Positions 14,082-64,000 of a DNA stretch of 64,000 nucleotides are shown piece after piece. A program made the translations under genes and the position numbers. The notes under the pieces were generated by a model, which worked only from the letters and a program-made list of their open reading frames with translations, was not told where the DNA came from and made no database searches. Source of the DNA: a virus. The stretch lies in IMG/VR virus record IMGVR_UViG_3300046002_006949, positions 1 through 64,000 of that record, one strand, 5' to 3'. Positions within the stretch are counted from its first letter, which is position 1, and every line of letters begins with the position of its first letter.

Positions 14082-14759
14082 ATGGCTGACAGTCAAAAAG
14101 AATCGAAGGGGCAGGCAGGCTCGACTTGCCTGCCCCTTTCTGTTTTCCCGGGACGCACAATCTGCACAGGCCCGTGCGGACTACCGGTACGAGATGTCTC
14201 CCCCAGAGGTTTCTGTATGACATGCGAAGACAACACAAAGGCAGCAGGCACCATCGCTGTCCTGGCCGCTCAGCTCCCCAAGAAGGGCTTCAGAGACGCC
14301 ATCAACGAAGTCAGGCGTAACAGCCAGCCTATGTCGCTCGCCATCGCTGACGCGGCTATGGCGGAGCTTGGAGGAGAGGCTGAGCTGGGCCGGATGATCG
14401 TGAGGGATCTTCGGCAGGTGAAGGGAGATCATCTCCCCGATGACCTGAAGGCATTCCACGATGTTGACTGGAAGGTCGCCAAAGGTCTCACCGAGATCCT
14501 CGTCAAGCTGGCGGCTGACAGGGACAAGCTGGTTGGTGAGACCGCGGACCCACTGGCTGACGTGTCAGAAGGCGACCTCATGGCGATCGCAAGCCAGGCT
14601 GCGTTGCTACAGATCGAGACAGACGAAGAGTTCCGGTTGAAGATCCTCGACATGATCGTAGACATCGATCCGGAGATGGTGTTGCAGGCGGCTGGCAGAG
14701 CAATCGACAGGTTAGAGTCAGGCCCAAAGGTGGAGGTTATCGATGCCAAGTTTACTTGA
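14082..14759 (+). CDS. Unknown late protein with Cys4 motif; possible packaging factor
   Basis: From the ATG at 14082 the protein has 225 residues with a zinc-ribbon-like cluster (Cys28, Cys32, Cys45, Cys48; ICTGPCG ... GFCMTCED), then helices through residue 225. The first 20 codons contain a strong terminator-like hairpin (14106-14146), which is odd for a coding region. An ATG at 14217, behind CAGAGGTTT, would give 180 residues and drop both hairpin and half the zinc motif. I favour the longer form because the cysteine motif looks genuine. Lying upstream of the terminase, it could be a small-terminase or head protein, but nothing proves this. Confidence 0.5.
   Translation: MADSQKESKGQAGSTCLPLSVFPGRTICTGPCGLPVRDVSPRGFCMTCEDNTKAAGTIAVLAAQLPKKGFRDAINEVRRNSQPMSLAIADAAMAELGGEAELGRMIVRDLRQVKGDHLPDDLKAFHDVDWKVAKGLTEILVKLAADRDKLVGETADPLADVSEGDLMAIASQAALLQIETDEEFRLKILDMIVDIDPEMVLQAAGRAIDRLESGPKVEVIDAKFT
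14106..14146 (+). terminator. Terminator-like hairpin at the 5' end of a gene
   Basis: AAGGGGCAGGCA (14106-14117) pairs perfectly with TGCCTGCCCCTT (14127-14138), followed by TCTGTTTT. It is as good as any terminator in the window yet overlaps codons 9-21 of the frame beginning at 14082. It probably ends capsid-gene transcripts, or attenuates expression of the genes that follow. Confidence 0.7.
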
Positions 14760-36801: not shown

Positions 36802-39800
36802 ATGCCATCTCTTTCTCAGCTTCTTAACGCTATGCCTCAACCCGGCACCCAGCAGGCCCCCTCCGAATCGGGCGGTAGCCTGCTGGACACGCTCGGTGCT
36901 GTCGGAGGTGCGTCTCTCGGGGCTGTCGCGTCCGCAGGTAACTTCCTCGACCTGCCGACCTCGTCGATCCGAGACGTACTTGCCGGCGAGAATCCATTCG
37001 ACCAGTGGATGACTCCTCTGACAGACCAGAACCGAACCAGCGGTCGCGGACTGCTGGAGAAGTACGGTATGCGGGCCAACAAGGAGACCGGTATCGGCGG
37101 CTGGTTCTCTGACCCGGGTGAAGGTCTACGCGACATCGCTGGGTTCGGGGTCGAGGTACTACTCGACCCCTTCGGGCCGCTGACCAAAGGTACGAAGATG
37201 GCGGCTGGGGCTGCCAGTCTGGTTGACCGGGCTCACCCTCTCGTCAAGGCTCTGGCCAAAGGGGGACTGTACGCCTTCGACAAACTACCAGAGAAGGCAG
37301 TTGGGTCGATCAAAGATACTCTCATGGCCGGCGGCCGAGGTGTCAAAGCACTGTTCAACGTGGCGAGTGAAGGTATCACCGACCCATACGTCATGCGTGT
37401 GAAGGAGACAGCACACAAAGCCGCAGCGATGTTCCGCGAAGAGGCCAACCTCCGGACCATAGAGGTGATCCAGCTCGCCAACAAATCGGGGTTCAACCTT
37501 CAGGTTGATGACGCCCTTGACATGAGCGACTCGAAGAACTGGTTAGAGGATGGGTCCTCCCTGAAAGTGGCGGCCCGTGAAGACCAGATGTGGAGATACC
37601 TCGAAGGAACGTACGACCCGTCGAACGCTAAGTTTGACCAGGGCGATCTCGTCACCGGCATGGACGGAGCCCCGAAAGAGGTCGAGTACCTGAACCGCAC
37701 AGCCACCGGTACTCAGGTGAAACTTGTCGACGATGACAAGCTGTACGACTACCACGAGCTGCAGGCCCACTGGGTCGCCGCGACCGAAACGATCCCGGAC
37801 GAACTCATGCCGGCCCTTGACCGGATCAAGACATACCGCGATGGGCTTCGGGACCGGGCGGAACCGCTTGGCCTGAACATCGGCGAACTGTTTGACCGTC
37901 ACATCGACTTCGCACATCGACGCAAGGGCAGTGACCTCCGCCGGGCCGAGTCCATCATTGGTATTGGGGCTCCCGGTTGGACCCGAAAGAACTACGCCAA
38001 CCTCGCGTCTACGCTGCAGGTCAAGGGCAGTCGTGAGATGAAGTACAAATCCTTCGTCGACGGCACTCCCGGCGTTGATAAGTTGTTCGGAGACAAAATA
38101 TGGGAAACCGTGTTTAACCAGGTCAATGACGAGGCAACTGCCCCGTTCGTCGTCAACGGTGTACCCCATCGGATTCTGCCTGACATGGTCGGCATGAAGC
38201 ACCTCGATGAAGTTGCGTCTGCTCTCGACATGACGGCGGAGGAGATGCTGCGGGACATGATGATAGGTCGGGCCGTCAATAAGACGAACACCCGGGCCTA
38301 CACCACAGCACCCGGGGTGTACGACGTCGTACAGAACGCCTCGAAGATCGGTGAGATGGGCGTTGAGATCGTTGACGGTGTTGCCACGGTCAAACACTCA
38401 ATGCCGGTTGACGGTAGCCTTGATGACGCACTGCACGACGTGGAGTGGCATCTCGCCCGCCAGAAGGCTGCGACCCGAATACAGGTTGACGTTAACCCGG
38501 CCGATGGTAGTAAGTTGAAGGACTTCGGGTACGTCCCGGACGGCATCAACCAGGACGGTACGGAGCGATGGTACAAGGCCCTCCATGATGCCGAAGCATC
38601 GGCCAACGACGCACCTCGGTACCTGCCGAAGGCAGAGGCTGTTGCACGTATCAAGAACATCATGGACTTTTACGCCAACGCTGTGAAGCAGGGCAACGTC
38701 CCGGGCGTACAGCCGGGCGTCGGTTGGTGGAAGTCCTTCACTGACATCCGACTGAATGCTGACGGTACCGAGCGTGTGATCAACACCAATCCAGCCAAGT
38801 CCGGTTTTGTCGAGGTCAACGCGGCCAACATAACCGACCCCGCGATCCGTGCCAACTTCACCAGCATGGTAGACTACGATCATGCTGTCAATGCGGTACA
38901 GGGTGGCGAGACCATCTGGGTCGGTGTGCAGAAGAAGAAGGGTAAGGCGGCCGAGCTGTTGATGCTGAGGCCGACCATGCGTCACCAGATCGAGGCCCAG
39001 CGGGATAAGTTACTGGCCGGGCTGGACGCTGCACTGAGCAAGAACCCGCTGACCCAGAGCGAAGCCATCACCGACACTGTCCACGCAGGTATCACTCGGA
39101 ACTACGGCGACAAGGTCGACCAGTGGATGCCAGAGTTTGATGAGGACAGCGGGAAGATCATCGCCTCCAGTGCTGACGGCCCGGTACACAAGGCCGGACT
39201 GAAGGAATACCACGGTACATTCTCTGAACTGATGGAACGTGGTGCCGATGGCCGCCTGACGAAGCCGATGGATGCCCTTCTCCGGATGGACGCCGACAGC
39301 CTCAAGGCGTTGATGTTCACCGACTCGCAGATCCGGGAGCTTGGCGACCTGCGTGAAGCTGTCAACCTCACACAAGACGTATCGATCGGTCTCGTCGACA
39401 GGCACCGAGCGTTGGCCGACGAACTCGGTACGCACATTGAGAAGCGGTACAACAAGATGTACGAGGGATCAGCCCTCGTCAGCAACCTGGACTACCTGAA
39501 CCGGAACGCCGGGGCTATCTCCCTGCTGGAGTCGACCAAGACCTTCCTGTCGAAGGCTGTTGTGGACGCACGGTCTAACCCTGAACGGTTCGGTGTCGGC
39601 AAGCCCGGCGGCGACCTTGAGGTCAACTACGATCTGAACAACAAGCGGGGTATGACGTTCGCCGAGTCGATGGACCAGGGTTTCTTCGGTGAGAATATTA
39701 CTGCCAGCAAATTCATCGAGTCGATGCGGCAGGAACTGATCAGCGTCGGTGCGTTCAAGAACGTCGACAATGCAGACGAGATCGCAGCCCAACTGGGAGA

Positions 39801-41484
39801 GATCAAATCGTTGCGGCTCCTGTCCGGCACATGGACCCAGCTCAAGACCATGAATGAGATGGCTCACATGACTGACCTGCCTGAGCTGGGGACACCGCTC
39901 CGCTGGGCACAGAACCTGATGGCGGTTGAGAAGGCGGGTCTGTTGAGCGTAACGCCAACGACCGGTATGAGAGACGGTCTGTCCTCGTACTTCAATGCAG
40001 TGATAATGGGCGACATGAATCCGCTGGCCGCATTGAAGTACGGCAAGAAGGCGATGTCGTTCACACGAGGTATGCCTGTTGACCCGGGTAAAGGTATTGC
40101 TGACCTCGAAGCGTACCTGTCAAGCCGGGGCCTGGAGTCGAATGCGAACACCCGGGCTGAAGCATTCCAGAACATGTGGAATGCTCACTACGCATCGGGG
40201 TCTACGCACCCCAACGTCGTGACGGCGGACGCTACCCGCATGGCCGAATCCGATTCGTCGATGGCTGTCATGAAGAACGCTGTTGGTGGCCAGCCGAAAG
40301 AATTCCTCGAAGGGATGAAGCGGACGATACAGAAACCGTGGAAGGCTCTGGACCCACGAGTCGAGGGCACGTCGATGACCGACGAGCTTGGCCGAAAAGT
40401 CAAACGGTCGGTCGGGGAGAACACCCTCGTTCAGTCGATGAATGGTTTCCGCGGTATGATAGATACCGCGGTCAGATCGACGTACGTCCTGGACCGCGTC
40501 ACTAAGAAGGGTATGACTGTCGCACAGGCTCTGGCCGATGCAGACCGGGTCCTGATGAATGCGGACCCGAAGAACTTCACTCGGTTCGAATCCAAGTTCA
40601 TGAAGTCAGCGTTCCCCTTCTACTCCTTCATGCGACAGAGTCTTCCTCTGTTCTTGTCAGAGATGATGGTCAACCCCGGCGGCAAGCTCGGCATGACTAT
40701 CCGAGGATCTCGACTGGCACAAGGTGAAGGTGACGAGTATGTCCCATACCAGTACCTCGACTCAGCGGCTGTCCCTATTGGGCAGGCAGACGACGGGGCG
40801 TTGAAGTACCTGACGTCGCTTGGCATGATGCACGAAGATGCCGTCAAGTACGCCGGCAACGCTTTGCAGGGTGACGCACGGGGTTTGATGCAGCACGCTC
40901 TAAGCTCGGCTAACCCCGCGGCCAAGTGGTTTATTGAGTACAGCACGAACACATCGCTGTTTAGCCAGGGTCCGATGGGTGGTCGACGACTGGACGACCT
41001 CGACCCAACGATGGGGCGTATCGCTACCAACATCGGTCTGCAGAGTGAAGACGCCTCGGGCAGAGCACGCCCGGTTGGCAGCTCAATGCTTGAGTCTCTG
41101 GCATCGGCAGGACCTCTGTCCCGCATGTTGTCTACGGCCAAGATGCTAACCACCAGCAGTGACCGGTTGTCATCCGGGGATAAAGTACTCAGGATGCTGT
41201 CCGGGGTCCGCGTCGAGAATGTGACACAGGAGCAGGTGACACGAGACCTGCGAGACAGACTGAACGCGATCCAGATCCAACTGGGTGCTCGGCCACTCAC
41301 GACTGTCAGCGGTGCGGGGAAACTCAAAGCATTCGCCGCTGAGCAGGGCGATACGGAAACCGTTGATAAACTGACCCGGATCGAGGCCGCCCTGTCCGCC
41401 CAACGTAAGATCGTGGCCGACCAGAAGAAGAAATCTAAAGAACCCACCAAAGCTCTGATTGACAGACTAAGGGAACTCCGGTAG
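36802..41484 (+). CDS. Giant virion/internal protein of 1560 residues
   Basis: The largest gene of the window. Residues 45-126 repeat the N-terminal module of the protein at 14743 (SSIRDVLAGENPFDQWMTPL, then GLRDIAGFGVEVLLDPF); both proteins begin MPSL. The rest is mainly helical. Near the C-terminus, FMKSAFPFYSFMRQSLPLFL and following text match a motif I associate with the end of large phage internal or polyvalent proteins. Candidates are an ejection protein, an internal core protein, or the tape measure: no other gene has the expected tape measure length. No transglycosylase or peptidase motif was found. The ATG is the first in the frame, with a G-rich stretch about 14 bases upstream. Confidence 0.6.
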   Translation: MPSLSQLLNAMPQPGTQQAPSESGGSLLDTLGAVGGASLGAVASAGNFLDLPTSSIRDVLAGENPFDQWMTPLTDQNRTSGRGLLEKYGMRANKETGIGGWFSDPGEGLRDIAGFGVEVLLDPFGPLTKGTKMAAGAASLVDRAHPLVKALAKGGLYAFDKLPEKAVGSIKDTLMAGGRGVKALFNVASEGITDPYVMRVKETAHKAAAMFREEANLRTIEVIQLANKSGFNLQVDDALDMSDSKNWLEDGSSLKVAAREDQMWRYLEGTYDPSNAKFDQGDLVTGMDGAPKEVEYLNRTATGTQVKLVDDDKLYDYHELQAHWVAATETIPDELMPALDRIKTYRDGLRDRAEPLGLNIGELFDRHIDFAHRRKGSDLRRAESIIGIGAPGWTRKNYANLASTLQVKGSREMKYKSFVDGTPGVDKLFGDKIWETVFNQVNDEATAPFVVNGVPHRILPDMVGMKHLDEVASALDMTAEEMLRDMMIGRAVNKTNTRAYTTAPGVYDVVQNASKIGEMGVEIVDGVATVKHSMPVDGSLDDALHDVEWHLARQKAATRIQVDVNPADGSKLKDFGYVPDGINQDGTERWYKALHDAEASANDAPRYLPKAEAVARIKNIMDFYANAVKQGNVPGVQPGVGWWKSFTDIRLNADGTERVINTNPAKSGFVEVNAANITDPAIRANFTSMVDYDHAVNAVQGGETIWVGVQKKKGKAAELLMLRPTMRHQIEAQRDKLLAGLDAALSKNPLTQSEAITDTVHAGITRNYGDKVDQWMPEFDEDSGKIIASSADGPVHKAGLKEYHGTFSELMERGADGRLTKPMDALLRMDADSLKALMFTDSQIRELGDLREAVNLTQDVSIGLVDRHRALADELGTHIEKRYNKMYEGSALVSNLDYLNRNAGAISLLESTKTFLSKAVVDARSNPERFGVGKPGGDLEVNYDLNNKRGMTFAESMDQGFFGENITASKFIESMRQELISVGAFKNVDNADEIAAQLGEIKSLRLLSGTWTQLKTMNEMAHMTDLPELGTPLRWAQNLMAVEKAGLLSVTPTTGMRDGLSSYFNAVIMGDMNPLAALKYGKKAMSFTRGMPVDPGKGIADLEAYLSSRGLESNANTRAEAFQNMWNAHYASGSTHPNVVTADATRMAESDSSMAVMKNAVGGQPKEFLEGMKRTIQKPWKALDPRVEGTSMTDELGRKVKRSVGENTLVQSMNGFRGMIDTAVRSTYVLDRVTKKGMTVAQALADADRVLMNADPKNFTRFESKFMKSAFPFYSFMRQSLPLFLSEMMVNPGGKLGMTIRGSRLAQGEGDEYVPYQYLDSAAVPIGQADDGALKYLTSLGMMHEDAVKYAGNALQGDARGLMQHALSSANPAAKWFIEYSTNTSLFSQGPMGGRRLDDLDPTMGRIATNIGLQSEDASGRARPVGSSMLESLASAGPLSRMLSTAKMLTTSSDRLSSGDKVLRMLSGVRVENVTQEQVTRDLRDRLNAIQIQLGARPLTTVSGAGKLKAFAAEQGDTETVDKLTRIEAALSAQRKIVADQKKKSKEPTKALIDRLRELR

Positions 41485-42181: not shown

Positions 42182-42483
42182 AGTACCTACCCGCAGTACT
42201 GATGCTGATTGGCGGCTGCTTGCTGCTTGTGCCCACGGGTGACACGGACGTTGCCTTTTCAGACACGCTGTCCGTCGCCTACAAGGCTGACCGGGCGGCC
42301 AAGGTTGAGAACCTCCAGCGGTTGGCCCAGATGACGGGCTCGACCGCAGAGGCCCGGGCTAAGGCATGGTCCGAGCTTGACATGGCAGCGTACGGTAAAG
42401 CCTTCGACAAGGTTGGCGACGACGTCTCGGTGGCGATTGAGAAGAACACTGAGGCAGACTTGGCCAAAGCCTGGAGTAAGTGA
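42178..42483 (+). CDS. Secreted or lipoprotein-like protein, 101 residues
   Basis: ATG overlaps the previous stop (ATGA). An N-terminal hydrophobic stretch (KYLPAVLMLIGGCLLLVP) includes LIGGC, which could serve as a lipobox, or be a simple signal anchor. The rest is helical (AKVENLQRLAQMTGSTAEAR). Together with the preceding membrane protein it could form a spanin-like pair; this is speculative. Confidence 0.5.
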   Translation: MKYLPAVLMLIGGCLLLVPTGDTDVAFSDTLSVAYKADRAAKVENLQRLAQMTGSTAEARAKAWSELDMAAYGKAFDKVGDDVSVAIEKNTEADLAKAWSK

Positions 42484-43325
42484 TGACATCGCGAGTACTG
42501 AACGGTTGGCGAATCGACAAGGAAGACTTCGACTTTCTGCGTGGTCTGGAAGGTGAAGATCTCGTCATGCAGTTGTGCGGATCGTACGAGGAGGTTTCCC
42601 TCGATCCACGAACGTTGCTGCGTGTCGAGAACCAGGGTCCCGTTGGTAGTTGCCAAGGACATTCAATCTCATCCGGGTGTGAGTGGCTTTACATTCTGGC
42701 CACGAGTGACCCGTCTCTGCAGCTCAGCCGGGCGTATGGTTACTACCGTAGCCAGAAGATCGATGGGTTACTTGGTCGAGACGCCGGGTCCACCATCCAG
42801 GCAGGCGTGAAGGTCGCGATGGAGTTTGGTATTCCCGAAGAATCGGAGTGGCAGTACTCCAACCGGTACTCACAGAATCCACCAAAGCCCTGGGATGTGA
42901 TGGATACGCTGGGTGCGAAGTATAAGGTCGCCAAGGCAATCCGTCTGACAACTTACGAATCTATCCGCACCTTTCTCGGTGCCGGTGTCGGTATGGTCCA
43001 CATCGGTATTCCCTGGAACTCATCCGTCGACAAGGCAGTTGTCACCAGCTTCAACCCGAACGGTGGGGGCGGGCACTCGATCGGGCTCTACGCTCTGTCG
43101 GATCGCAAGGACAGCCAAGGTCGGCCATTCGTCTGGATGATGAACTCCTGGGATAAGACCTGGGGCAACGCTGGTTGGGCCGAGTGGGCACCGGACGCCA
43201 TCACATCCATGCTGAAAGCATCGTTCTCAGTATTCATTGGTATCTCTGAAATGCCCGCGGTTAAACCTCGGGAATGGAAACTCGACGACATCAAGAAACA
43301 AGTGAAATGGTGGGTGTCCCCGTGA
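42483..43325 (+). CDS. Papain-like (C1A) cysteine protease
   Basis: A 280-residue protein with all catalytic residues of papain-family peptidases in order: Gln51 (oxyanion hole) and Cys57 in NQGPVGSCQGH, His198 in GGGGHSIGLY, and Asn221 in MNSWDKTWGNAGWAEW. The usual Trp after the catalytic Cys is replaced by Gln. There is no signal peptide and no long inhibitory propeptide (only about 50 residues precede the core). Such proteases are rare in phages. Potential roles are lysis (degrading wall or envelope protein), virion maturation or host attack. It lies between two lipoprotein-like genes with 1- and 4-base overlaps. The ATG at 42483 (alternative GTG at 42480) is chosen. Confidence 0.85.
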   Translation: MTSRVLNGWRIDKEDFDFLRGLEGEDLVMQLCGSYEEVSLDPRTLLRVENQGPVGSCQGHSISSGCEWLYILATSDPSLQLSRAYGYYRSQKIDGLLGRDAGSTIQAGVKVAMEFGIPEESEWQYSNRYSQNPPKPWDVMDTLGAKYKVAKAIRLTTYESIRTFLGAGVGMVHIGIPWNSSVDKAVVTSFNPNGGGGHSIGLYALSDRKDSQGRPFVWMMNSWDKTWGNAGWAEWAPDAITSMLKASFSVFIGISEMPAVKPREWKLDDIKKQVKWWVSP

Positions 43326-56185: not shown

Positions 56186-57608
56186 TAAGGTCTGGACTCC
56201 ACATGGGTACCAGAACTCCGGGGTCCAGTTCCTCCACGAGAGGACCAGCCTTAACCCCGAGGGTAAAGGCGGGGCCGGACTTCTATGGGACTGCGGGCTC
56301 GGCAAGTCCACGACCTGTCTGGAGTGGATGAGTCAGATGAAAGAGTTCGGCCTCGCAAACCGCTTTCTCATCGTGGCCCCACTCCGTGTTGTCACCAACG
56401 TGTGGCCCCGGGAAATCGTCGAGTGGTCTAACTTCAGGTCGCTGTCCTTCTCAGTGATACATGGCAGTGCGATTGTACGTCGTAAGAGAATGGCAACGCC
56501 GGCCAACATCCACATCATCAACCGGGAGGGCATCCCGTGGTTAGCCAAACAACTCGAAGGTCGTAAGACCCTCCCGTGGCAGGGCATCATCATCGACGAG
56601 TCCACGTCGTTTAAGAACTGGTCTGCGGCTAGGTCGAAAGCCCTGCGTAAGATCATCCCACGCATACCGTACCGCGTCATCCTGACAGGCACGCCGACGC
56701 CGAATACTCTGGCTGACCTGTACCCCCAGGTATGGCTGCTCGATGAGGGGCAATCCCTCGGTGAAAACATTACTAAGTTCAGGGCCAACAACTGTGCTCA
56801 GGTTGGCGAACGTCAGATGAACAAGTTCGAGGTGAGGAAAGACCGAGAGGCTACCATCCACGACTCGGTGAAGCATCTGGTCCTGCGGCTCGACGCGAAG
56901 GATCATCTCGACATGCCGGAGCTGGTCTACAACACGATCCGGTGCGACCTGCCTTCTAAGGCAATGGCTGAATACAAATCGATGGAGGAGCAACTCTTCG
57001 TGGCCCTCGCAGACGGGTCCAGCCGCGGTGCGGTGAATGCTGGTGCCAAGTACAACGCCTGTCGACAGATCGCCAACGGTGGGATCTATGACGAGCAGCA
57101 CACCGGGCACCACCTGCACGACGCAAAGGTGGACGCGTTACATGAACTGATTGAGGAGCTGCAGGGCAAGCCGGTTCTCATCGCGTACCAGTTCGGCCAC
57201 GACCTTGAGCGTATCCGCAAAAGGTTCCCGAAGATCCAGGCGATTCATGGCGGCATGAGGACCGCTGAGGTGGATCGGCTGATAGCCGACTGGAACGGTG
57301 GGTGTCTCAGTGGGACACACTTGGCCGTCCAGCCACAGGCCCTGAGTCATGGAGTGAATCTCCAGGAGGGACCGGGAAGAAACATCTTCTGGTTTGGCCC
57401 CTCAGATAACCTCGACACGGTCTACCAGTTCGACCGACGCATTTACCGCCAGGGTGTCGGGTCCACTGTCGTGGTGCATCGGGCGTCCTGTAATGACACG
57501 CTCGATGAGTTGGTCTGGGAGAAGATCAACAACAAGGAGGAGGTCCAGTCGAACCTTCTTGAGGTACTACGTCAGTACGCGAAGACGAAGATGTCAAAGC
57601 GGGGTTAG
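56169..57608 (+). CDS. SNF2/DEAD-type helicase
   Basis: A 479-residue superfamily 2 helicase of the phage SNF2 type: Walker A DCGLGKSTTC (near 41-50), IVAPLRVVTNVW (motif Ia), IIIDESTSFKNW (DExx motif II), VILTGTPTPNTLADLYPQ (motif III), VLIAYQFGHDLERI and QFDRRIYRQG (motif VI). These enzymes translocate on DNA and, with VRR-NUC, are thought to process forks or junctions. ATG at 56169 (TTG one codon earlier). It ends the operon and overlaps a converging minus-strand gene by 4 bases. Confidence 0.9.
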   Translation: MQAVADKVWTPHGYQNSGVQFLHERTSLNPEGKGGAGLLWDCGLGKSTTCLEWMSQMKEFGLANRFLIVAPLRVVTNVWPREIVEWSNFRSLSFSVIHGSAIVRRKRMATPANIHIINREGIPWLAKQLEGRKTLPWQGIIIDESTSFKNWSAARSKALRKIIPRIPYRVILTGTPTPNTLADLYPQVWLLDEGQSLGENITKFRANNCAQVGERQMNKFEVRKDREATIHDSVKHLVLRLDAKDHLDMPELVYNTIRCDLPSKAMAEYKSMEEQLFVALADGSSRGAVNAGAKYNACRQIANGGIYDEQHTGHHLHDAKVDALHELIEELQGKPVLIAYQFGHDLERIRKRFPKIQAIHGGMRTAEVDRLIADWNGGCLSGTHLAVQPQALSHGVNLQEGPGRNIFWFGPSDNLDTVYQFDRRIYRQGVGSTVVVHRASCNDTLDELVWEKINNKEEVQSNLLEVLRQYAKTKMSKRG

Positions 57609-58009
57609 ACGTACTCATCGCCCCTCAACACGCCTTCAAACAGACGCCGGCCCCGGCTGAATATCAGTCGGGTCTTGTACCCGTCGAGGCTATCCTCGCT
57701 GTCAGAGGACGTCCAGAACGGGTTCTTCCTCGGGTTGTAGGTCAACTCTCGAACAGGCTCGTATTCGTCACCGACGCCAGCCCCAGCTTTGACGTACTCG
57801 CAGTCGACCCAGGCACACACGGTCTTATCCGCCCCATCGAAGATCTTATTGGCCGTCGCCTTCTGGTTCCTCAGCCTACAGTTTATCAACCGTAAGCCGA
57901 TCCGGGACGGGTCCGCGTAGAACGGTATCTCGTTCGGCTCTGTAGGTATCCAAACTTTCCACTTCCCGAAGTTCTTACCGAGACCCAGGTGGAATCTTAC
58001 TCGTAGCAT
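57605..58009 (-). CDS. Last gene of the right minus-strand block, unknown
   Basis: A 134-residue basic protein (MLRVRFHLGLGKNFGKWKVW) with short beta segments (YADPSRIGLRLINCRLR). The ATG follows TTGGAGGGTGCC. It overlaps the converging helicase gene by 4 bases without a terminator between. Not recognised. Confidence 0.6.
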   Translation of the reverse strand: MLRVRFHLGLGKNFGKWKVWIPTEPNEIPFYADPSRIGLRLINCRLRNQKATANKIFDGADKTVCAWVDCEYVKAGAGVGDEYEPVRELTYNPRKNPFWTSSDSEDSLDGYKTRLIFSRGRRLFEGVLRGDEYV

Positions 58010-58042
58010 GGCACCCTCCAAAAAAGTTTAGTGAACACAATG

Positions 58043-58066
58043 CTGGTCCTCCGCAGAGGACCAGCG
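58043..58066 (-). ncRNA. UGCG-loop hairpin 1
   Basis: In the minus-strand transcript GCUGGUCCUC-UGCG-GAGGACCAGC, a perfect 10-base-pair stem closed by C-G, giving a cUGCGg (UNCG-class) tetraloop. It lies between genes 58073-58324 and 57605-58009 and is followed by the conserved GUGUU element. One of eight related hairpins. Confidence 0.75.
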
Positions 58067-58072
58067 TTACAG

Positions 58073-58324
58073 TCACTTCAGGTAGTCCTCGGGGTAGAAT
58101 GGCGTACCGTCCGGCAGATAGACGTGGTCCCCGTCCCAGCTACCACACTCACGCTCGCCGAACAGGCATGAGGCGAGCTGTTCCTTGATCTCGCCTTCAC
58201 CCCTGAACTCACACTTCAAGGGCCAGGGAATCGTATCGATGTCTCCAGCCGGGTAGTGGTAGATCAACACGTCCTGACCAATCTCAAGTTGGCCACCGCT
58301 GCTTGTCAGATGACAGTTATTCAT
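58073..58324 (-). CDS. Unknown acidic protein, 83 residues
   Basis: ATGA overlap with the upstream gene. The sequence (NNCHLTSSGGQLEIGQDVLI... KEQLASCLFGERECGSWDG) has an acidic, beta-rich pattern. No family recognised. A hairpin of the UGCG family follows its stop. Confidence 0.55.
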   Translation of the reverse strand: MNNCHLTSSGGQLEIGQDVLIYHYPAGDIDTIPWPLKCEFRGEGEIKEQLASCLFGERECGSWDGDHVYLPDGTPFYPEDYLK

Positions 58325-58554
58325 AGATCCAGGTCCTCACACTTAGCAGAATAGATTGGCCCACCATCTGTCGGGGCAACCTGTATCGTGGCAGCACCGA
58401 GGATACAGACACATCCGACAACGTTTACCATCTGGTCCTGTGACTTGTCGTACACAGGGGCCTGAACCAGCTTGTGAAACTGGCGGAGGACAGACTGCAT
58501 ACGAGTCTGCCATGACAATTGAGCAGGGGACTGAGGGGGTTGTTCACTCGGCAT
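58321..58554 (-). CDS. Small protein, 77 residues
   Basis: The ATG at 58554 sits behind GGGAGAACGCG and overlaps the upstream gene by 11 bases. A Gln/Ser/Pro-rich start (SEQPPQSPAQLSWQTRMQSV) is followed by a hydrophobic, cysteine-containing stretch (VVGCVCILGAATIQVAPTDG) and an acidic end. The middle segment could be a membrane or a buried strand region. Unrecognised. Confidence 0.5.
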   Translation of the reverse strand: MPSEQPPQSPAQLSWQTRMQSVLRQFHKLVQAPVYDKSQDQMVNVVGCVCILGAATIQVAPTDGGPIYSAKCEDLDL

Positions 58555-58864
58555 CGCGTTCTCCCAGATTCTTAAAACCAGTTGGATATTCAGGCGGATA
58601 CATCTCACGCCCCTCTTCTTCGATGTTGGTCCATGCCGGCCGCATGACGGCGAACATGTACTTTCCATGTGACTCCGGAATGTAGATCGGCGCCGTGTAG
58701 TACGGCAGAAGCTGGTCGCCCCAGACTTCTGTCTGGACCATCCACTTACCACCTCGGTCCCGGCGGGACAGCTTCACCTGATGACGGTAGCGTGTCCCGT
58801 CTGCTGCAATGGTAGACCAGATGTTCCGCCACTGTCTCGGATCAGCTTCGATTCGACTTGCCAT
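58544..58864 (-). CDS. Unknown protein, 106 residues
   Basis: Starts at ATG 58864, overlapping the membrane gene by 23 bases. Basic N-terminus (ASRIEADPRQWRNIWSTIAA), then beta-rich sequence (HQVKLSRRDRGGKWMVQTEV) and an acidic end. No known domain. Confidence 0.55.
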   Translation of the reverse strand: MASRIEADPRQWRNIWSTIAADGTRYRHQVKLSRRDRGGKWMVQTEVWGDQLLPYYTAPIYIPESHGKYMFAVMRPAWTNIEEEGREMYPPEYPTGFKNLGERDAE

Positions 58865-59042
58865 TGTTCATCCTTTCGTAAGCGTTGTGTAATTCTTTGG
58901 AGTACGTGTCATGCCACTTCTTCTCATCCTTCGCGATCATAGCCATCGCAAAGATGTAGAGGCCGACCAGTACGAGTGCCGCAAATGCCATGATGGCCAG
59001 CGGGTGCGTCGTCTGCACAAGGTCTGTCACTGAGCAGAGCAT
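58842..59042 (-). CDS. Single-pass membrane protein, 66 residues
   Basis: A hydrophobic segment at about 15-36 (PLAIMAFAALVLVGLYIFAM) follows a short N-terminus; the C-terminal half is charged and helical (IAKDEKKWHDTYSKELHNAY). It overlaps the upstream zinc-ribbon gene by 16 bases. Possible anchor for an early phage protein; not known. Confidence 0.55.
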   Translation of the reverse strand: MLCSVTDLVQTTHPLAIMAFAALVLVGLYIFAMAMIAKDEKKWHDTYSKELHNAYERMNNGKSNRS

Positions 59043-59275
59043 GGGTGGTCCTTCTCAAGCGGGTCAAAAATGTTAGCACACAGAATACATTTCAGCTTTC
59101 TGAAGCCGAGAATCCAGTGAACCATTCCGCATTCACAAACTGGACAGTGCCGCTTTCCCGGCGGCTCGGGGGACTGAGTGCACTCATGACTTTTCATGCC
59201 GCACCCTTTGCACCGGCTCGTCTCGTCACAAACAGGCCGGTCACCTCCACAGAACTTACAGTGGACTGTTATCAC
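59027..59275 (-). CDS. Zinc-ribbon protein, 82 residues
   Basis: GTG start behind GGAGATGAATC. Multiple CxxC motifs (HCKFCGGDRPVC, CKGCGMKSHEC, CPVCECG, KCILCANIF) indicate two or three zinc ribbons arranged in tandem. Such small proteins bind DNA, RNA or RNA polymerase. As an early-block gene it may target host transcription; this is inference. Confidence 0.65.
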   Translation of the reverse strand: MITVHCKFCGGDRPVCDETSRCKGCGMKSHECTQSPEPPGKRHCPVCECGMVHWILGFRKLKCILCANIFDPLEKDHPCSAQ

Positions 59276-59311
59276 GATTCATCTCCTAACAAGTGAAGTA
59301 AGCACACGAAA

Positions 59312-59333
59312 GAGAGGCTCCGCAAAGCCCCTC
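59312..59333 (-). ncRNA. UGCG-loop hairpin 2
   Basis: Transcript GAGGGGCUU-UGCG-GAGCCUCUC with a U-G closing pair. Between genes 59344-59688 and 59027-59275. Sequence differs from the other hairpins but pairing and loop are retained. Confidence 0.7.
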
Positions 59334-59343
59334 CATCCAATGT

Positions 59344-59688
59344 TTACGACAGTTCAGATACTTCAGCAACCGGGGCACTTTCGAACAGTTCCCGGACCCG
59401 CTCGTCAGTAATCGCGGGGTTCCACCCGACGTAGGTTGCATTGAGAGGCACAAGGTCACCCATGTGAAGCATCTCGATCGGTACCTCTGCTTCAAGCTCG
59501 GTGTCCTCGTACCCGAAGTGGTGACGGGCAAACCCCTCGGAGACCGGGACGTTCCGTGAGCTGCGTTCTGACCGATTCCCAGACGTGGCGAAGTACGTAC
59601 TGTCCGGAAGACCAAACAGCCGGCAGTGGTCCAACGCCTTCAGACCGTGGTAAGTGATATCCGGAATAACCAAATTGATTTTGAACAT
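59344..59688 (-). CDS. Unknown acidic protein, 114 residues
   Basis: Starts at ATG 59688 behind AGGGATGAC. FKINLVIPDITYHGLKALDH is followed by charged, helical sequence (VSEGFARHHFGYEDTELEAE). No recognised domain. Flanked by UGCG hairpins on both sides. Confidence 0.55.
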   Translation of the reverse strand: MFKINLVIPDITYHGLKALDHCRLFGLPDSTYFATSGNRSERSSRNVPVSEGFARHHFGYEDTELEAEVPIEMLHMGDLVPLNATYVGWNPAITDERVRELFESAPVAEVSELS

Positions 59689-59726
59689 GTCATCCCTCTC
59701 AAAACTCGTAGCTAAGTAAACACAAT

Positions 59727-59750
59727 GCTGACCCACCGCAGTGGGCCAGC
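59727..59750 (-). ncRNA. UGCG-loop hairpin 3
   Basis: Transcript GCUGGCCCAC-UGCG-GUGGGUCAGC: stem of 10 pairs with C-G closing, compared with hairpin 1 by paired changes. Between genes 59758-60171 and 59344-59688. Confidence 0.75.
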
Positions 59751-59757
59751 GTTACGA

Positions 59758-60171
59758 TCACTCAAACTCAGGACCCACGCAGTACAGGTTCACAAGCTGT
59801 TCCGCCTGATCCATCGGTACTGGTCGGCGGGCACCGTCGAACCAGTCCTTGTACCAGTAGTAGCACCCGGTCAGCTCATCGCCTGTGAACTCAAAGTCAA
59901 ACCCGTCTGATGGGCCACCCCACGATAGCAGGACGGTGTACTTCATGACTTTGTCGACAGACAGCACGTCTTCCAGTTCACGGTCCCTGTGACGCTCACG
60001 GAGGGCGTCAATCAGGTCATCTGACGAATGGTCCGCTGGATCAATGTCGAGGTCAGACGCCCAACTCTGGATGTCCTCGTCGGACATGTCGTCCCAATCG
60101 GGTAACAGATTCTCAAGTGTGCCGATCAGTCGGCTGTTGATCAGCTCTTCACACGTTTTCTGTTCAGTCAT
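59758..60171 (-). CDS. Unknown acidic protein, 137 residues
   Basis: ATG at 60171 (a GTG one codon before is an alternative). Strongly acidic helical first half (DWDDMSDEDIQSWASDLD) and a beta-rich second half (YTVLLSWGGPSDGFDFEFTG). Such compositions occur among small early phage proteins that may mimic nucleic acid. No family known. Confidence 0.6.
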   Translation of the reverse strand: MTEQKTCEELINSRLIGTLENLLPDWDDMSDEDIQSWASDLDIDPADHSSDDLIDALRERHRDRELEDVLSVDKVMKYTVLLSWGGPSDGFDFEFTGDELTGCYYWYKDWFDGARRPVPMDQAEQLVNLYCVGPEFE

Positions 60172-60208
60172 CACTAACCCTCCAAAAGTGTTTAAGAGAA
60201 CACGAGCG

Positions 60209-60228
60209 ACAGGCCCCGCAAGGCCCGT
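60209..60228 (-). ncRNA. UGCG-loop hairpin 4
   Basis: Transcript ACGGGCCU-UGCG-GGGCCUGU, U-G closing pair. Between genes 60262-60696 and 59758-60171. Confidence 0.7.
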
Positions 60229-60261
60229 CTGTCACACCCTCTCAATCGCTCGGCACCTGCA

Positions 60262-60696
60262 CTAGAATATGTATCTGCGGACTTGGTTGATGTCGGCTTT
60301 CAGAGTCTCCCTCCGGGTACAAAGCTCCGCGAGTTCCTGTTCGTAGTCATCACTGTCCTCGTCAAGTTCACTCGACTGGTCATCCAGCTCTGACAGTTCG
60401 CCCTCCAGCTCAGACAGAAGATCCTCCCGGGATTCTTCAAGGTCTCGGGTTTCGTACTCTTCGCCACGAACCTCGATAAAGTCCTCCCCATCAACCCAGT
60501 CGTTCCGGCCGCACCGGTACGCCACCGGGTCCATCGTCTTCAGGACGAACGATGGCATCATACAGCTAAACGGCCCACCGACAGACTCGAACGAGTAACC
60601 CTCGTCAAGCATATCGTCGTACATCTCGTCCGTGTCGATGGCATCGCATTCTGCTTCGACACGGTCCAGCAACTCTTCAATTTTGTCGTCTTTCAC
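60262..60696 (-). CDS. Highly acidic coiled-coil protein, 144 residues
   Basis: GTG start behind GGAGGTGG. Extremely acidic (DDKIEELLDRVEAECDAIDT near the start; QSSELDEDSDDYEQELAEL later), with a long Leu/Glu/Asp coiled-coil in the middle (LLSELEGELSELDDQSSEL). The profile suits a DNA mimic or a host-protein decoy, but nothing specific is recognised. Confidence 0.6.
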   Translation of the reverse strand: MKDDKIEELLDRVEAECDAIDTDEMYDDMLDEGYSFESVGGPFSCMMPSFVLKTMDPVAYRCGRNDWVDGEDFIEVRGEEYETRDLEESREDLLSELEGELSELDDQSSELDEDSDDYEQELAELCTRRETLKADINQVRRYIF

Positions 60697-60719
60697 AACC
60701 CACCTCCGGTCAAAAGAAG

Positions 60720-60766
60720 AACCGCCCGGCAGCGAGGGACGTATCCTCGATTGCCACCGGGCGGTT
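60720..60766 (-). terminator. Large nested hairpin upstream of 60262-60696
   Basis: Outer stem AACCGCCCGG/CCGGGCGGTT (60720-60729 with 60757-60766) and inner stem CGAGG/CCTCG (60733-60737 with 60745-60749). Read leftward it is followed by CTTCTTTT. It stands 24 bases upstream of the GTG of the next gene, so it may be a terminator or leader attenuator; it is different from the UGCG hairpins. Confidence 0.6.
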
Positions 60767-60930
60767 TAGATAATTCTGTTGTGCGTGAAGGTCGCCACCG
60801 TAAGTCTACATGGTCGTTTCCCCTTTCGTGAACCTTAACACCGGGTCAACCAATCGGAATGGCTGACGTAGTGTTCAGGTCGGTAAAGAAACTCTCTCGA
60901 CAGGTCTTTGATCTCAGGTCAGTTTACAAA

Positions 60931-61335
60931 TCAACCACAGAAAGACAAGTACAACCTGCCTTCGTGCATGTACAGATTCCCAGAGAAGCGACCGCTGCCG
61001 GCGTCCCTCTCGTACTGCTCCCAGTTGATTTCGTTCTCATCATCATCCCAACAGCCTGACTCCAGCTCACGGTAGTCACCCGCCGCGGACTGGATGATCA
61101 ACGCCTTCGTCTCGACGTCGGTCCAGGCATCGATCTCTTCGTCGTCCCAGGCTCCCCACGTTCGGATGTAGTCCTTGGCCTCCTGAATCTCTTCAGGTGT
61201 CAGGGTGATCTTGTCCGAGTTGTCCAGAGCGTTGTTCCATGTGATCTTGCCAGCGTCTGGACCCAGCTCAGCCACTGAGGCTGAGTATCTTGGGGCGTAG
61301 TCCTCCAGCAAGAATGACACGTCGATCTCAAGCAT
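60931..61335 (-). CDS. Acidic protein, 134 residues
   Basis: ATG behind AGGGAGGAACCAA. The sequence LEIDVSFLLEDYAPRYSASV and ALDNSDKITLTPEEIQEAKD is followed by an acidic stretch (DDEEIDAWTDVETKA, CWDDDENEINWEQYE) and ends FSGNLYMHEGRLYLSFCG. It resembles other members of this block in acidity but not sequence. Unknown. The gap to the next gene (60697-60930) holds the nested hairpin and nothing else I can name. Confidence 0.6.
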   Translation of the reverse strand: MLEIDVSFLLEDYAPRYSASVAELGPDAGKITWNNALDNSDKITLTPEEIQEAKDYIRTWGAWDDEEIDAWTDVETKALIIQSAAGDYRELESGCWDDDENEINWEQYERDAGSGRFSGNLYMHEGRLYLSFCG

Positions 61336-61373
61336 TTGGTTCCTCCCTTCAAAACCTGTTAAGCACACGATCG

Positions 61374-61393
61374 ACGAGCCTCGCAAGGCCCGT
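61374..61393 (-). ncRNA. UGCG-loop hairpin 5
   Basis: Transcript ACGGGCCU-UGCG-AGGCUCGU with a U-A closing pair. Between genes 61405-61788 and 60931-61335. Conserved GUGACAG precedes and GAUCGUGUG follows. Confidence 0.7.
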
Positions 61394-61404
61394 CTGTCAC
61401 AAGC

Positions 61405-61788
61405 TCAACCGTTCGGCTCATCACTAAAGGACAGTTGACGAAGGTCTCGACCAACAATAGCCGTCAGGTTCCGCAGGTCTCGATCCGTCATCTTGTACCC
61501 AATCTCGGCGGCCATACCCCGGAGAATCTTCGCCAGGACGCTTGTGGCGTTCCGTACGTCGGACTTGTACTCAACCGGGCCTTTCCGTTGACCGAAGGGG
61601 ACCCCCGCTTCCTTCAACGCCTGTTTGACCGTTACGATGGACAGGTTGAAGCCGGTATCCGCCTTCACAGCAGCCTGGATATCAGGCAGAGGGAGGTACA
61701 GTACCTCCACTTTCGTAGTTGGCCGCTCGATCCAGTTCATGAGTGCTTTCATGGACTGAAAGGTCGGCCGGTCTGATGATAGTCTCAC
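61405..61788 (-). CDS. Unknown protein, 127 residues, DNA-binding-like
   Basis: GTG start behind AGGAG. IQAAVKADTGFNLSIVTVKQ and ALKEAGVPFGQRKG read like a small helix-turn-helix with a following basic turn, and the last part is helical (TDRDLRNLTAIVGRDLRQLS). Being more basic than its neighbours it may bind DNA. No family match. Confidence 0.6.
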   Translation of the reverse strand: MRLSSDRPTFQSMKALMNWIERPTTKVEVLYLPLPDIQAAVKADTGFNLSIVTVKQALKEAGVPFGQRKGPVEYKSDVRNATSVLAKILRGMAAEIGYKMTDRDLRNLTAIVGRDLRQLSFSDEPNG

Positions 61789-61831
61789 GTAGATTCTCCT
61801 CTAAACCAAATGATCTGTTAAGCACACGATC

Positions 61832-61853
61832 GGTAGCCACCGCAGTGGCCACC
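61832..61853 (-). ncRNA. UGCG-loop hairpin 6
   Basis: Transcript GGUGGCCAC-UGCG-GUGGCUACC (C-G closing). Between genes 61881-62099 and 61405-61788. Confidence 0.75.
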
Positions 61854-61880
61854 TGTCACAAGCTCAACGCTCCGGACCTG

Positions 61881-62099
61881 CTATTCTATTAAGAACTCAT
61901 CGGCGTCATCCGTATCGAACGGGTAGTCACCATCCAGCAGATCCACCAACCAACCCTCGAACACTGCAACCACGGAAATACTTTCGTCCGGGTAGAGTTT
62001 GGCCAGAGCCAGAGCGGCGTCCATAGGTGATTCACCCTCGAAGTGACCGACGTAACGCAGCCACGTTGTGGTGTAGACTCCAACGATTGTGTACTTCAT
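61881..62099 (-). CDS. Unknown acidic protein, 72 residues
   Basis: ATG overlaps the upstream stop (ATGA). First half beta-like (KYTIVGVYTTTWLRYVGHFE), middle helical (MDAALALAKLYPDES), end strongly acidic (DYPFDTDDADEFLIE). Function unknown. Confidence 0.6.
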   Translation of the reverse strand: MKYTIVGVYTTTWLRYVGHFEGESPMDAALALAKLYPDESISVVAVFEGWLVDLLDGDYPFDTDDADEFLIE

Positions 62100-62641
62100 T
62101 CCTGATCGTCCTCGTACTGCTGAAGGGATTCCTCAATCCAGCACCGAGGCACCACAGCGAACCAGCAGGCATCGGTACACTGATACGTATGGAAGGTGAT
62201 GAACTTGTCTTCCATCGCTTTCGAGATGGACCCGATGCACTGGTATGTTTCAGCCAGTACCATCGCTCGCACGTCCTCAACCCCACAGTCAAGCTCCTCA
62301 GCAATGACTTTCACCTCATGCTGATTCTCGACTTCTTCGATGGCGTAACCGGCCACACAGCAGCCCTGCCCAACCGGTATCGTTGTGAACCGGTGGCCTG
62401 GCTCCATGTCGAATGACCACACATCAAACGCATCACGCAGGTACTCTACCTGCTCGTCTGTGATGCCTGGGAACTGCTCACGAGCATATTCCTCCAGCTT
62501 GTCCTTTGACCACCGGTCCTCCATCACACAATGAGTGTAGGCATCACCCGCGTCACTGTGCTTCTCCTCATACTCCAGGTAAGCCTCATCACACTTGGTG
62601 AGGTATTCACTGAACGCCTTCTGTAATTCTTCAGTAACCAT
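62096..62641 (-). CDS. Acidic helical protein, 181 residues
   Basis: ATG behind GGAGGGTCAA. Charged helices (QKAFSEYLTKCDEAYLEYEE) lead to cysteine-containing beta segments (CCVAGYAIEEVENQHEVKVI; TYQCTDACWFAVVPRCW) and an acidic end. No known domain; six cysteines could bind metal. Preceded by hairpin 7. Confidence 0.6.
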   Translation of the reverse strand: MVTEELQKAFSEYLTKCDEAYLEYEEKHSDAGDAYTHCVMEDRWSKDKLEEYAREQFPGITDEQVEYLRDAFDVWSFDMEPGHRFTTIPVGQGCCVAGYAIEEVENQHEVKVIAEELDCGVEDVRAMVLAETYQCIGSISKAMEDKFITFHTYQCTDACWFAVVPRCWIEESLQQYEDDQE

Positions 62642-62674
62642 TTGACCCTCCTGTTCGGTTTGAATGAACACAAC

Positions 62675-62699
62675 GGTCCCCCGCCGCAGCGGGAGAACC
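62675..62699 (-). ncRNA. UGCG-loop hairpin 7
   Basis: Transcript GGUUCUCCCGC-UGCG-GCGGGGGACC with one bulged base and C-G closing. Between genes 62710-63369 and 62096-62641. Confidence 0.7.
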
Positions 62700-62709
62700 T
62701 TGTAACCAC

Positions 62710-63369
62710 TCAGGCCGGCGAACCATCTTCCTCGAACTCATACTCGTTGGCGATTAGGTTTTCGTCAATCGCCTCGTCAGTCATGTACCAGTCGTACGTC
62801 TTCTCAAGTTGCTGGTACAACCAGTCGGCGAGCCAACGCAGGTTGTTCTCAACAACTTCTTCACGACCACGGTCCTCCATTGGCTCCCACTCGCCCTCCG
62901 AATTCTCAAACTCGTTGAACTCAAACCGCATGGTGTGAGAGTGTGAGTATCGACCAGTGGTTGTGATGTCCACACGGCACGTTGCGTTGTACGGTTGGAC
63001 AAAGTCCACGAACAGACATGCAGCGATGTTGTGCAGGTCCTCATCCAACGGTGCGTGCTCTTTGATCTTCTCAACCATGTCCAGCTCGCCACGGAACTCA
63101 CCAGCAAAACTGGCTCCGTCACCCTGTGAACTGAAACCACTGAAGGCGATTTCCGGCTTCTGTATGGTCCCACCACCCATCAGTCGTACCGTGCTGGTCT
63201 TCAGCTCGATACCGAGGATCTTACAGATGGTCTGGAAGTCATCGAATGTGCAGTCCCACCATTCATCAAACGGGTAGTCATCATGACTGTACCACTCACG
63301 GGCCTTCTCCTTGGCCTCGTCACTCAATTCCTCGAACTTGTAAACCTTGGTCACTTTATCCCTGGGCAT
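62710..63369 (-). CDS. Phage protein of the YkFdELsdeAKekAr type, 219 residues
   Basis: Begins MPRDKVTKVYKFEELSDEAK, the same opening I know from a widely distributed phage family (sometimes labelled antitoxin-like, function unknown). The rest is mixed alpha/beta and acidic (REWYSHDDYPFDEWWDC, CLFVDFVQPYNATCRVDI, EEVVENNLRWLADWLYQQLE). ATG behind GGAGATAAAC. Being in the early block it may act on a host protein. Confidence 0.65.
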   Translation of the reverse strand: MPRDKVTKVYKFEELSDEAKEKAREWYSHDDYPFDEWWDCTFDDFQTICKILGIELKTSTVRLMGGGTIQKPEIAFSGFSSQGDGASFAGEFRGELDMVEKIKEHAPLDEDLHNIAACLFVDFVQPYNATCRVDITTTGRYSHSHTMRFEFNEFENSEGEWEPMEDRGREEVVENNLRWLADWLYQQLEKTYDWYMTDEAIDENLIANEYEFEEDGSPA

Positions 63370-63398
63370 GTTTATCTCCTTTCTGAGAGAACACGATC

Positions 63399-63420
63399 GA
63401 CGAGCCCCGCAAGGCTCGTC
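63399..63420 (-). ncRNA. UGCG-loop hairpin 8
   Basis: Transcript GACGAGCCU-UGCG-GGGCUCGUC with a U-G closing pair. Between genes 63450-64000 and 62710-63369. Confidence 0.75.
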
Positions 63421-63449
63421 TGTCACATCCACTCAACGCACCGGACCTG

Positions 63450-64000
63450 CTATTCACATTCATATACAAGTTCATCAGTCGCAACGGACCAGATGTTGTA
63501 AGGTGCCTTCCCCTCCTCAAACCAGTCAGCCGCCAGACAGTACGTCTTCGGCCCATCAGGACAGAACGTGTCCAGGTTACCAGCACCCGGCACACATGGC
63601 GAGCAGAACTGTGCTCTGGTGTAGACTGGTGATTTGAAGACCCACAGGTTGTTGTCCGATGTGGTCTGAACGGTCAGACCTTCGAATTCATAGGCATACG
63701 GGCCAGACTCATCACGTTCCCAGTCCTGATCCTGCATGACGTTGTCCGCCATGTCAGACAGGTCATCATCGTCAGGCTTGAGACCCAGGTTCTCCATGAC
63801 ATGCCTGAAGCCCTTCTGAAGGCTGTCCTTCAACTCTTCAATAGCCGCTGTGTACCCAACGTCCTCACCGTGAGTGTACACATCATCCATAGCGTAGCAG
63901 TTGACGCTGTGCTGACTGATGATACCGTACCGGATACCAGTCTCCGCGTCTCGGTTGACCGGGCTGCTCGGCCCCGAGTAATCAATACCCGGATCGTTCG
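63450..64000 (-). CDS. Partial gene, phage protein of the IRYGIISQHS type
   Basis: The frame stays open past 63890 to the window edge, so the gene is truncated at its 5' end. Read from the edge it contains GPSSPVNRDAETGIRYGIIS and SVNCYAMDDVYTHGEDV, a signature I recall from hypothetical proteins in other phages (IRYGviSxxSv...). Downstream parts are acidic and helical (KDSLQKGFRHVMENLGLKPD) with cysteines (CSPCVPGAGNLDTFCPDG) that could bind zinc. An ATG at 63890 is internal and should not be taken as start. Function unknown. Confidence 0.7.
   Translation of the reverse strand, partial: NDPGIDYSGPSSPVNRDAETGIRYGIISQHSVNCYAMDDVYTHGEDVGYTAAIEELKDSLQKGFRHVMENLGLKPDDDDLSDMADNVMQDQDWERDESGPYAYEFEGLTVQTTSDNNLWVFKSPVYTRAQFCSPCVPGAGNLDTFCPDGPKTYCLAADWFEEGKAPYNIWSVATDELVYECE

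Follow-up and report, generated by a model that had tools for sequence, protein, structure and literature searches.

The minus-strand operon of small genes at positions 57605-64000 of the window, by which we mean the first 64,000 bases of the 68,044-base IMG/VR virus record IMGVR_UViG_3300046002_006949, holds between its genes eight copies of an imperfect hairpin of about 24 bp capped by the loop UGCG. The copies share a covarying structure, are under selection as RNA of the operon strand, lie at gene junctions and recur both in related phages and in an essentially unrelated one, and their plan is that of the sites at which the early transcript of phage T7 is divided. By analogy with T7 we consider it probable that they are RNase III-type processing sites which split an early messenger RNA (mRNA) in the same way. 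A preliminary description of this DNA had offered processing sites, mRNA stabilisers and protein-binding sites as alternatives, among which processing is the best supported by virtue of the architecture shared with the T7 RNase III sites. The operon, which is taken to be early and whose genes are mostly without known function, spans 57.6-66.1 kb and continues beyond the window; the window part contains the following elements.

58028-58079, minus strand: UGCG element 1 (full 24-position hairpin, as for those below), 63.3 bits, preceding the gene 57605-58009; upper hairpin 58065-58042.
59297-59348, minus strand: UGCG element 2, 55.3 bits, preceding the gene 59027-59275; upper hairpin 59334-59311.
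59713-59764, minus strand: UGCG element 3, 64 bits, preceding the gene 59344-59688; upper hairpin 59750-59727.
60193-60244, minus strand: UGCG element 4, 68.7 bits, preceding the gene 59758-60171; upper hairpin 60229-60208.
61358-61409, minus strand: UGCG element 5, 66.5 bits, preceding the gene 60931-61335; upper hairpin 61394-61373.
61817-61868, minus strand: UGCG element 6, 68.6 bits, preceding the gene 61405-61788; upper hairpin 61853-61832.
62661-62712, minus strand: UGCG element 7, 54.8 bits, preceding the gene 62096-62641; a G.G mismatch at position 11 and a 5' strand altered with compensation; upper hairpin 62696-62677.
63384-63435, minus strand: UGCG element 8, 67.9 bits, preceding the gene 62710-63369; upper hairpin 63420-63399.

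All eight hairpins of the preliminary description were recovered, each with 8-10 contiguous pairs (8-11 had been given) and a TGCG loop, but they form only the top half of a structure about twice as long, of which the outer helix and a constant mismatch had been missed. A ninth copy lies at 64069-64046, just beyond the end of the window. Among the minus-strand tetraloop hairpins of at least seven pairs in the window TGCG is the most frequent loop (7 of 57, other loops occurring at most three times each), while it is not among the commonest loops of the plus-strand hairpins. The folding energies of the eight elements range from -22 to -31 kcal/mol with z-scores of -3.3 to -5.6, and no dinucleotide shuffle folded as well for six of them and only one in 200 for each of the other two.

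The full architecture emerged from an ungapped alignment, anchored on the loop, of 23 copies taken from the home genome and from two relatives, with DNA polymerases that share 79% and 78% identity with that of the window phage. Counting from the loop, the UGCG is followed by a 9-bp upper stem, a 2x2 mismatch, 5 bp, a weak position 17 and a 7-bp outer helix, giving 21 well-paired positions. Positions 1-9 are paired nearly always in the 23 copies, position 10 is variable and mostly mismatched, and position 11 is a mismatch in all 29 copies compared (C.A, U.U, C.C or G.G). Positions 12-16 are paired, beginning with an invariant A-U, then G-C or A-U, and continuing with wobble-rich pairs, while position 17 is mostly G.U or a mismatch and mostly not Watson-Crick. 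Pairing resumes at positions 18-24 with many two-sided changes and falls to background from position 25 on, so that the helix ends after about two helical turns. An 8x8 internal loop, our initial idea for the lower part, was replaced by this wobble-rich helix once all copies had been aligned. The GUGUU or GUGUG that had been set apart as an element of its own turns out to be the 3' strand of the lower helix, at positions 14-18. Rfam gave no covariance-model match to the elements, its sole hit being a chance small nucleolar RNA (E 0.85) outside them.

The proposal of compensatory change, and with it of selection on RNA structure, is well supported by these alignments. In the 23 copies 95.9% of cells are paired, as against 72% with the letters of the 3' strand shuffled and 38-47% with the partner strand slid; in 29 copies the figure is 94.4% against 37.6-47.9% with the register slid, with two-sided changes at 16 of 21 pairs, in 127 cells. 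Relatedness among the copies inflates such counts, and the slid control and the prediction of copies in held-out phages carry most weight. Six held-out copies, from two phages outside the model, have 88.9% of their cells paired. Among the non-Watson-Crick oppositions at paired positions G.U occurs 102 times and A.C three times, which indicates that selection acts on RNA of the transcribed, operon strand. The same ratio, together with the single orientation of the elements and their restriction to the gene junctions of one operon, leaves hardly any room for a DNA-level feature such as an operator, a recombination or packaging site or a repeat resembling a miniature inverted-repeat transposable element, which inverted repeats scattered between genes and an accompanying AGCAGGTCC motif might have suggested. 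Hairpin promoters of the N4 type were also set aside: none of the proteins was identified as a large virion RNA polymerase, and a stem that varies and contains G.U pairs argues for RNA. A protein of 1560 residues had no hit in Pfam or PHROGs.

Of 31 main-type elements from six records, 30 have the loop UGCG and the remaining one has CGCG, a constancy that in part reflects how copies were chosen, mostly by this loop; when the loop was not used as a filter, five of about 35 hairpins of this plan had another loop. The loop-closing pair in the first 23 copies is C-G in 11, U.G in nine and U-A in three. The earlier assignment to the UNCG class when closed by C-G is correct as far as it goes, but it covers only about half of the copies, and the constancy of the loop is thus unlikely to be due to the special stability of C(UNCG)G. 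Something may read UGCG, and both the chief competing explanation and the most novel one considered below start from this point.

The placement of the elements is equally regular. In the home genome they are confined to the gaps of this operon and share its orientation, and all 11 gaps longer than 35 nt hold a hairpin of this kind, while short or overlapping junctions hold none. Nine of the 11 are of the main type, one lies at about 65.2 kb and one is divergent. Nearly all elements stand between a stop codon and the next Shine-Dalgarno sequence and start; the stop codons overlap the base of the helix or lie within about 20 nt of it, starts follow 12-28 nt after the helix, and the Shine-Dalgarno sequence lies outside it. 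The hairpin at about 65.2 kb, beyond the window, follows the same plan with a different loop and lower stem and has counterparts in relatives, in one of which the loop is UGCG. The gap 60697-60930 had been regarded as the only one above about 35 nt without a hairpin; the other gaps do hold the element, but this one too contains a divergent relative of it, besides a terminator-like structure.

60845-60867, minus strand: divergent hairpin of the same plan in the gap 60697-60930, with an 8-bp upper stem, the loop UUCCGAU and a lower helix.
60712-60764, minus strand: terminator-like hairpin with a U tract in the same gap, unlike every UGCG element.
63443-63451, minus strand: AGCAGGTCC motif overlapping a TAG stop codon, just 5' of element 8.
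61874-61882, minus strand: further copy of the AGCAGGTCC motif, before element 6.

Within this gap the divergent hairpin is followed by a Shine-Dalgarno-like sequence with ATG TAG, a start and then a stop, and by the terminator-like hairpin, an order that may represent a lost gene or a minimal open reading frame. The AGCAGGTCC motif precedes many UGCG elements and overlaps a TAG stop in the home genome and in its relative G003. It was also seen at about 65.2 kb (L006), in G003 (L024) and in the more distant relative G021 (L059), and in G021 nearly the same motif precedes four terminator-like hairpins instead.

The recurrence of the elements was followed with a covariance model (R1) built from the 23 copies. 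Searched against the whole home genome, as the preliminary description had proposed, it returned only the nine copies, and further copies appeared in related phages. In G003, whose DNA polymerase is 69% identical and which had no part in the model, it found four full copies and a partial one, and in G021, likewise held out, it found one. G021 is syntenic with the window phage but only distantly related to it (major capsid protein 63%, terminase 56% and DNA polymerase 42% identical). Two more copies were found, by a pattern scan together with the model, in G022, a 43-kb phage that is essentially unrelated to the window phage, with only two or three small matches to it. Each of the two copies lies after a stop codon and ahead of the following start, with C.A at position 11, the A-U and purine-pyrimidine (R-Y) pairs and a 3' strand that reads AUYGUG; their loop was fixed by the search pattern and is not independent evidence. 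Outside the group, L022 and L023 seemed to fit the pattern but had no match to the model, and reverse-complement matches of the model were mirror images of strong elements. Pattern scans of bacterial genomes gave chance hits only; in two later scans of viral sequences the hits were mostly due to chance, and besides the known relatives only G021 and G022 held. A generic long-hairpin descriptor proved too loose, and lacked specificity, when applied to whole genomes.

The resemblance to T7 concerns both form and setting. The elements have a covarying helix of 24 positions, in keeping with the two turns or so, or the looped stem of 12 bp or more, of T7-type RNase III sites, together with a mismatch about one turn from the loop (positions 10-11) and a location between cistrons, before the next ribosome-binding site. 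The T7 sites (R0.3, R0.5, R1, R1.1 and R1.3) are likewise intergenic in an early polycistronic operon and precede a Shine-Dalgarno sequence, with a 9-10-bp upper stem, a small loop, an internal loop about one turn below it and a mismatched lower helix. In site R1 of T7 a 9-bp stem with the loop UGCG stands on a 2/3 internal loop, below which helices of 5 bp and 4 bp are separated by a 1x1 mismatch, a closely similar plan. The cuts in the T7 sites presumably lie about 12-13 nt 3' of the loop. The T7 early transcript is split at five sites (PMC4858673), of which the R1.1 RNA has been described (PMC6121014); R1.1 is cut at nt 5887 (PMC8708148), which on the T7 sequence is about 13 nt 3' of the loop. 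A common role in the separation of transcripts also fits the same operon of G021, where many intrinsic terminators stand at gene junctions beside one UGCG element, a mixture that we read as two ways of separating the transcripts of neighbouring genes.

On the T7 plan the minus-strand operon would be transcribed as a long polycistronic RNA in which the imperfect hairpin of about 24 bp would form at each separated junction. A host RNase III-type enzyme would then cut the 3' side, within or beside the internal mismatch and about 12-13 nt past the loop, giving AUY^GUGU (the caret marking the cut). The upstream mRNA would thereby end in a stable 3' hairpin, and the downstream mRNA would retain its own Shine-Dalgarno sequence in a short leader, as happens in the early region of T7. 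Such a cut would fall inside the most conserved strand of the element, by an analogy of form, and at the T7 distance it would place the cut in element 8 near 63395/63394. We infer the cutting itself, the enzyme, the position of the cut and the effect on the mRNAs by this comparison with T7, where cleavage is known.

Several points weigh against processing of the T7 type. The asymmetric loop of R1.1 (4/5 nt) was not found in the elements, whose alignment is ungapped and whose internal loop is a symmetric 2x2, in contrast to the asymmetric one of T7. The covariance model fails to match T7, so that there is no sequence homology, and the 3' strand carries UUUAUGAU in several T7 sites but AUYGUGU here. 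When T7 DNA was folded at six presumed coordinates of its early RNase III sites, of which 5887 is confirmed (PMC8708148), hairpins of this plan formed at five and none at the sixth (2015). The T7 loops vary (GCAA, CUAGC, UGCG and CUA), whereas UGCG is nearly constant here. Bacterial RNase III needs no fixed loop (PMC8708148), and the constancy of UGCG and AUYGUGU is therefore not explained by the mechanism alone.

This constancy is the strength of a second explanation, to which we give clearly less credence, in which the elements are operators for a specific RNA-binding protein of the phage or host that reads UGCG and the mismatch one turn below it and controls translation, stability or antitermination of each gene. 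A variable stem with a near-constant loop, a constant mismatch at position 11 and constant A-U and R-Y pairs beside it form the usual signature of recognition; C-G closes only 11 of the first 23 loops, and UNCG stability is not what has been kept; and the motif recurs in the essentially unrelated G022. The 24-bp helix of two turns, however, exceeds the usual length of an operator, the operon proteins yielded no candidate for an RNA-binding protein, and the position of the Shine-Dalgarno sequence outside the helix makes simple occlusion unlikely.

A similar, marginally lower standing may be given to a combination of recognition and cutting, in which a dedicated factor would recognise the elements, as a new RNA family, by UGCG and the position-11 mismatch about one turn apart, and unrelated phages, which may share one host group, would rely on them for the cutting of their early mRNAs. 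One example would be an enzyme of RNase III type, from a bacterium or a phage, measuring from a fixed tetraloop in the manner of yeast Rnt1p. The AGNN sites of Rnt1p resemble the elements in that a conserved tetraloop caps a variable stem, which in the Rnt1p sites measures at least about 13 bp and lies next to an RNase III cut (PMC8708148). They differ in belonging to a eukaryotic enzyme and in their loop, and the same source describes no tetraloop-dependent bacterial RNase III.

It is improbable that the elements are passive mRNA-stabilising hairpins at the 3' ends of cistrons, blocking 3' exonucleases without an internal cut. Their stable folding directly after stop codons would suit such a role, and the intercistronic C(UUCG)G hairpins of phage T4 are a known kind of UNCG-type hairpin between phage genes, with the loop UUCG and not UGCG. 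Passive stabilisers, however, would have no need for the position-11 mismatch, the outer helix, the constant UGCG or the AUYGUGU strand, and the T4 hairpins are not known to have an outer helix, an internal mismatch or a constant 3' strand.

Transcription terminators or attenuators, whether intrinsic or factor-dependent, are more improbable still, although the same operon of G021 has 33 terminator-like sites against 12.9 expected (L059, G021:45000-57551, minus strand) and a few elements of the window pass a loose terminator scan. A GC-rich hairpin followed by an unpaired U tract was not found in the elements: the 10 nt after the upper stem contain 3-6 T broken by G and C, and the bases at the would-be U tract are paired in the covarying outer helix, unlike an intrinsic tail. 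The initial judgement that ordinary termination is unlikely for want of a U tract is borne out, and the site with a U tract in the same operon (60764-60712) looks different. The intrinsic terminators of G021 and of Erythrobacter phage XM05 are junction hairpins in small-gene operons, as here, but they have U tracts and no outer helix. In XM05 (PV416404.1, L029) repeated GGGGC-TTCG-GCCCC junction hairpins, several of them followed by CTCTTTTTG, are probably terminators.

Among other repeated elements of phages, the extended start-associated sequences (ESAS) of cluster K mycobacteriophages are likewise imperfect inverted repeats upstream of some non-structural genes, conserved across related phages (PMC3203893). 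ESAS consist of 17-bp repeats with conserved arms and a variable spacer of 4-13 bp, followed by a 13-bp start-associated sequence (SAS) (PMC3203893), whereas the elements described here have variable, compensated arms and a fixed loop. The 13-bp GGGATAGGAGCCC repeat that cluster K SAS/ESAS place at the start codon is absent from the leaders read. In G022 (L069:3480-7420) about ten genes have a common leader of the form CCCCTTSARTGATTTTTTGGGAG directly before the start, which resembles the start-associated sequences of the cluster K phages.

The source virus is a tailed phage, judged from matches of its DNA polymerase, terminase and helicase. It showed no DNA-level match to any named phage in INPHARED, and a comparison of its terminase with those of named phages also gave no match, so that the host could not be inferred; a scan of bacterial genomes with the DNA polymerase found no relative. 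Two sigma-70 promoters were found in the region of the elements, against 2.9 expected. In the virion region the protein encoded at 29750-31687 of the window has an FGE-sulfatase (formylglycine-generating enzyme-like) domain, and a papain-like peptidase match lies at 42480-43325. The large proteins encoded at 14743-17016 and 36802-41484 have N-terminal segments that are alike, as if duplicated, and both match one same place in G021. In G001 and G003 (L033 and L034) the terminase large subunit is interrupted in frame by an insert of some 350 residues that has a match to LAGLIDADG and is probably an intein; the insert is absent from the window phage and from G002.

The elements constitute a new covariation-supported RNA family, absent from Rfam, in uncultivated phages, and they point to processing of mRNA in the T7 manner by a lineage remote from T7. 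Generic bacterial RNase III has no need of the near-constant loop, and this loop yields a testable prediction about the reader of the element. The covariance model provides a handle for annotating operons of this kind and perhaps a means of assigning unrelated phages to a shared host group.

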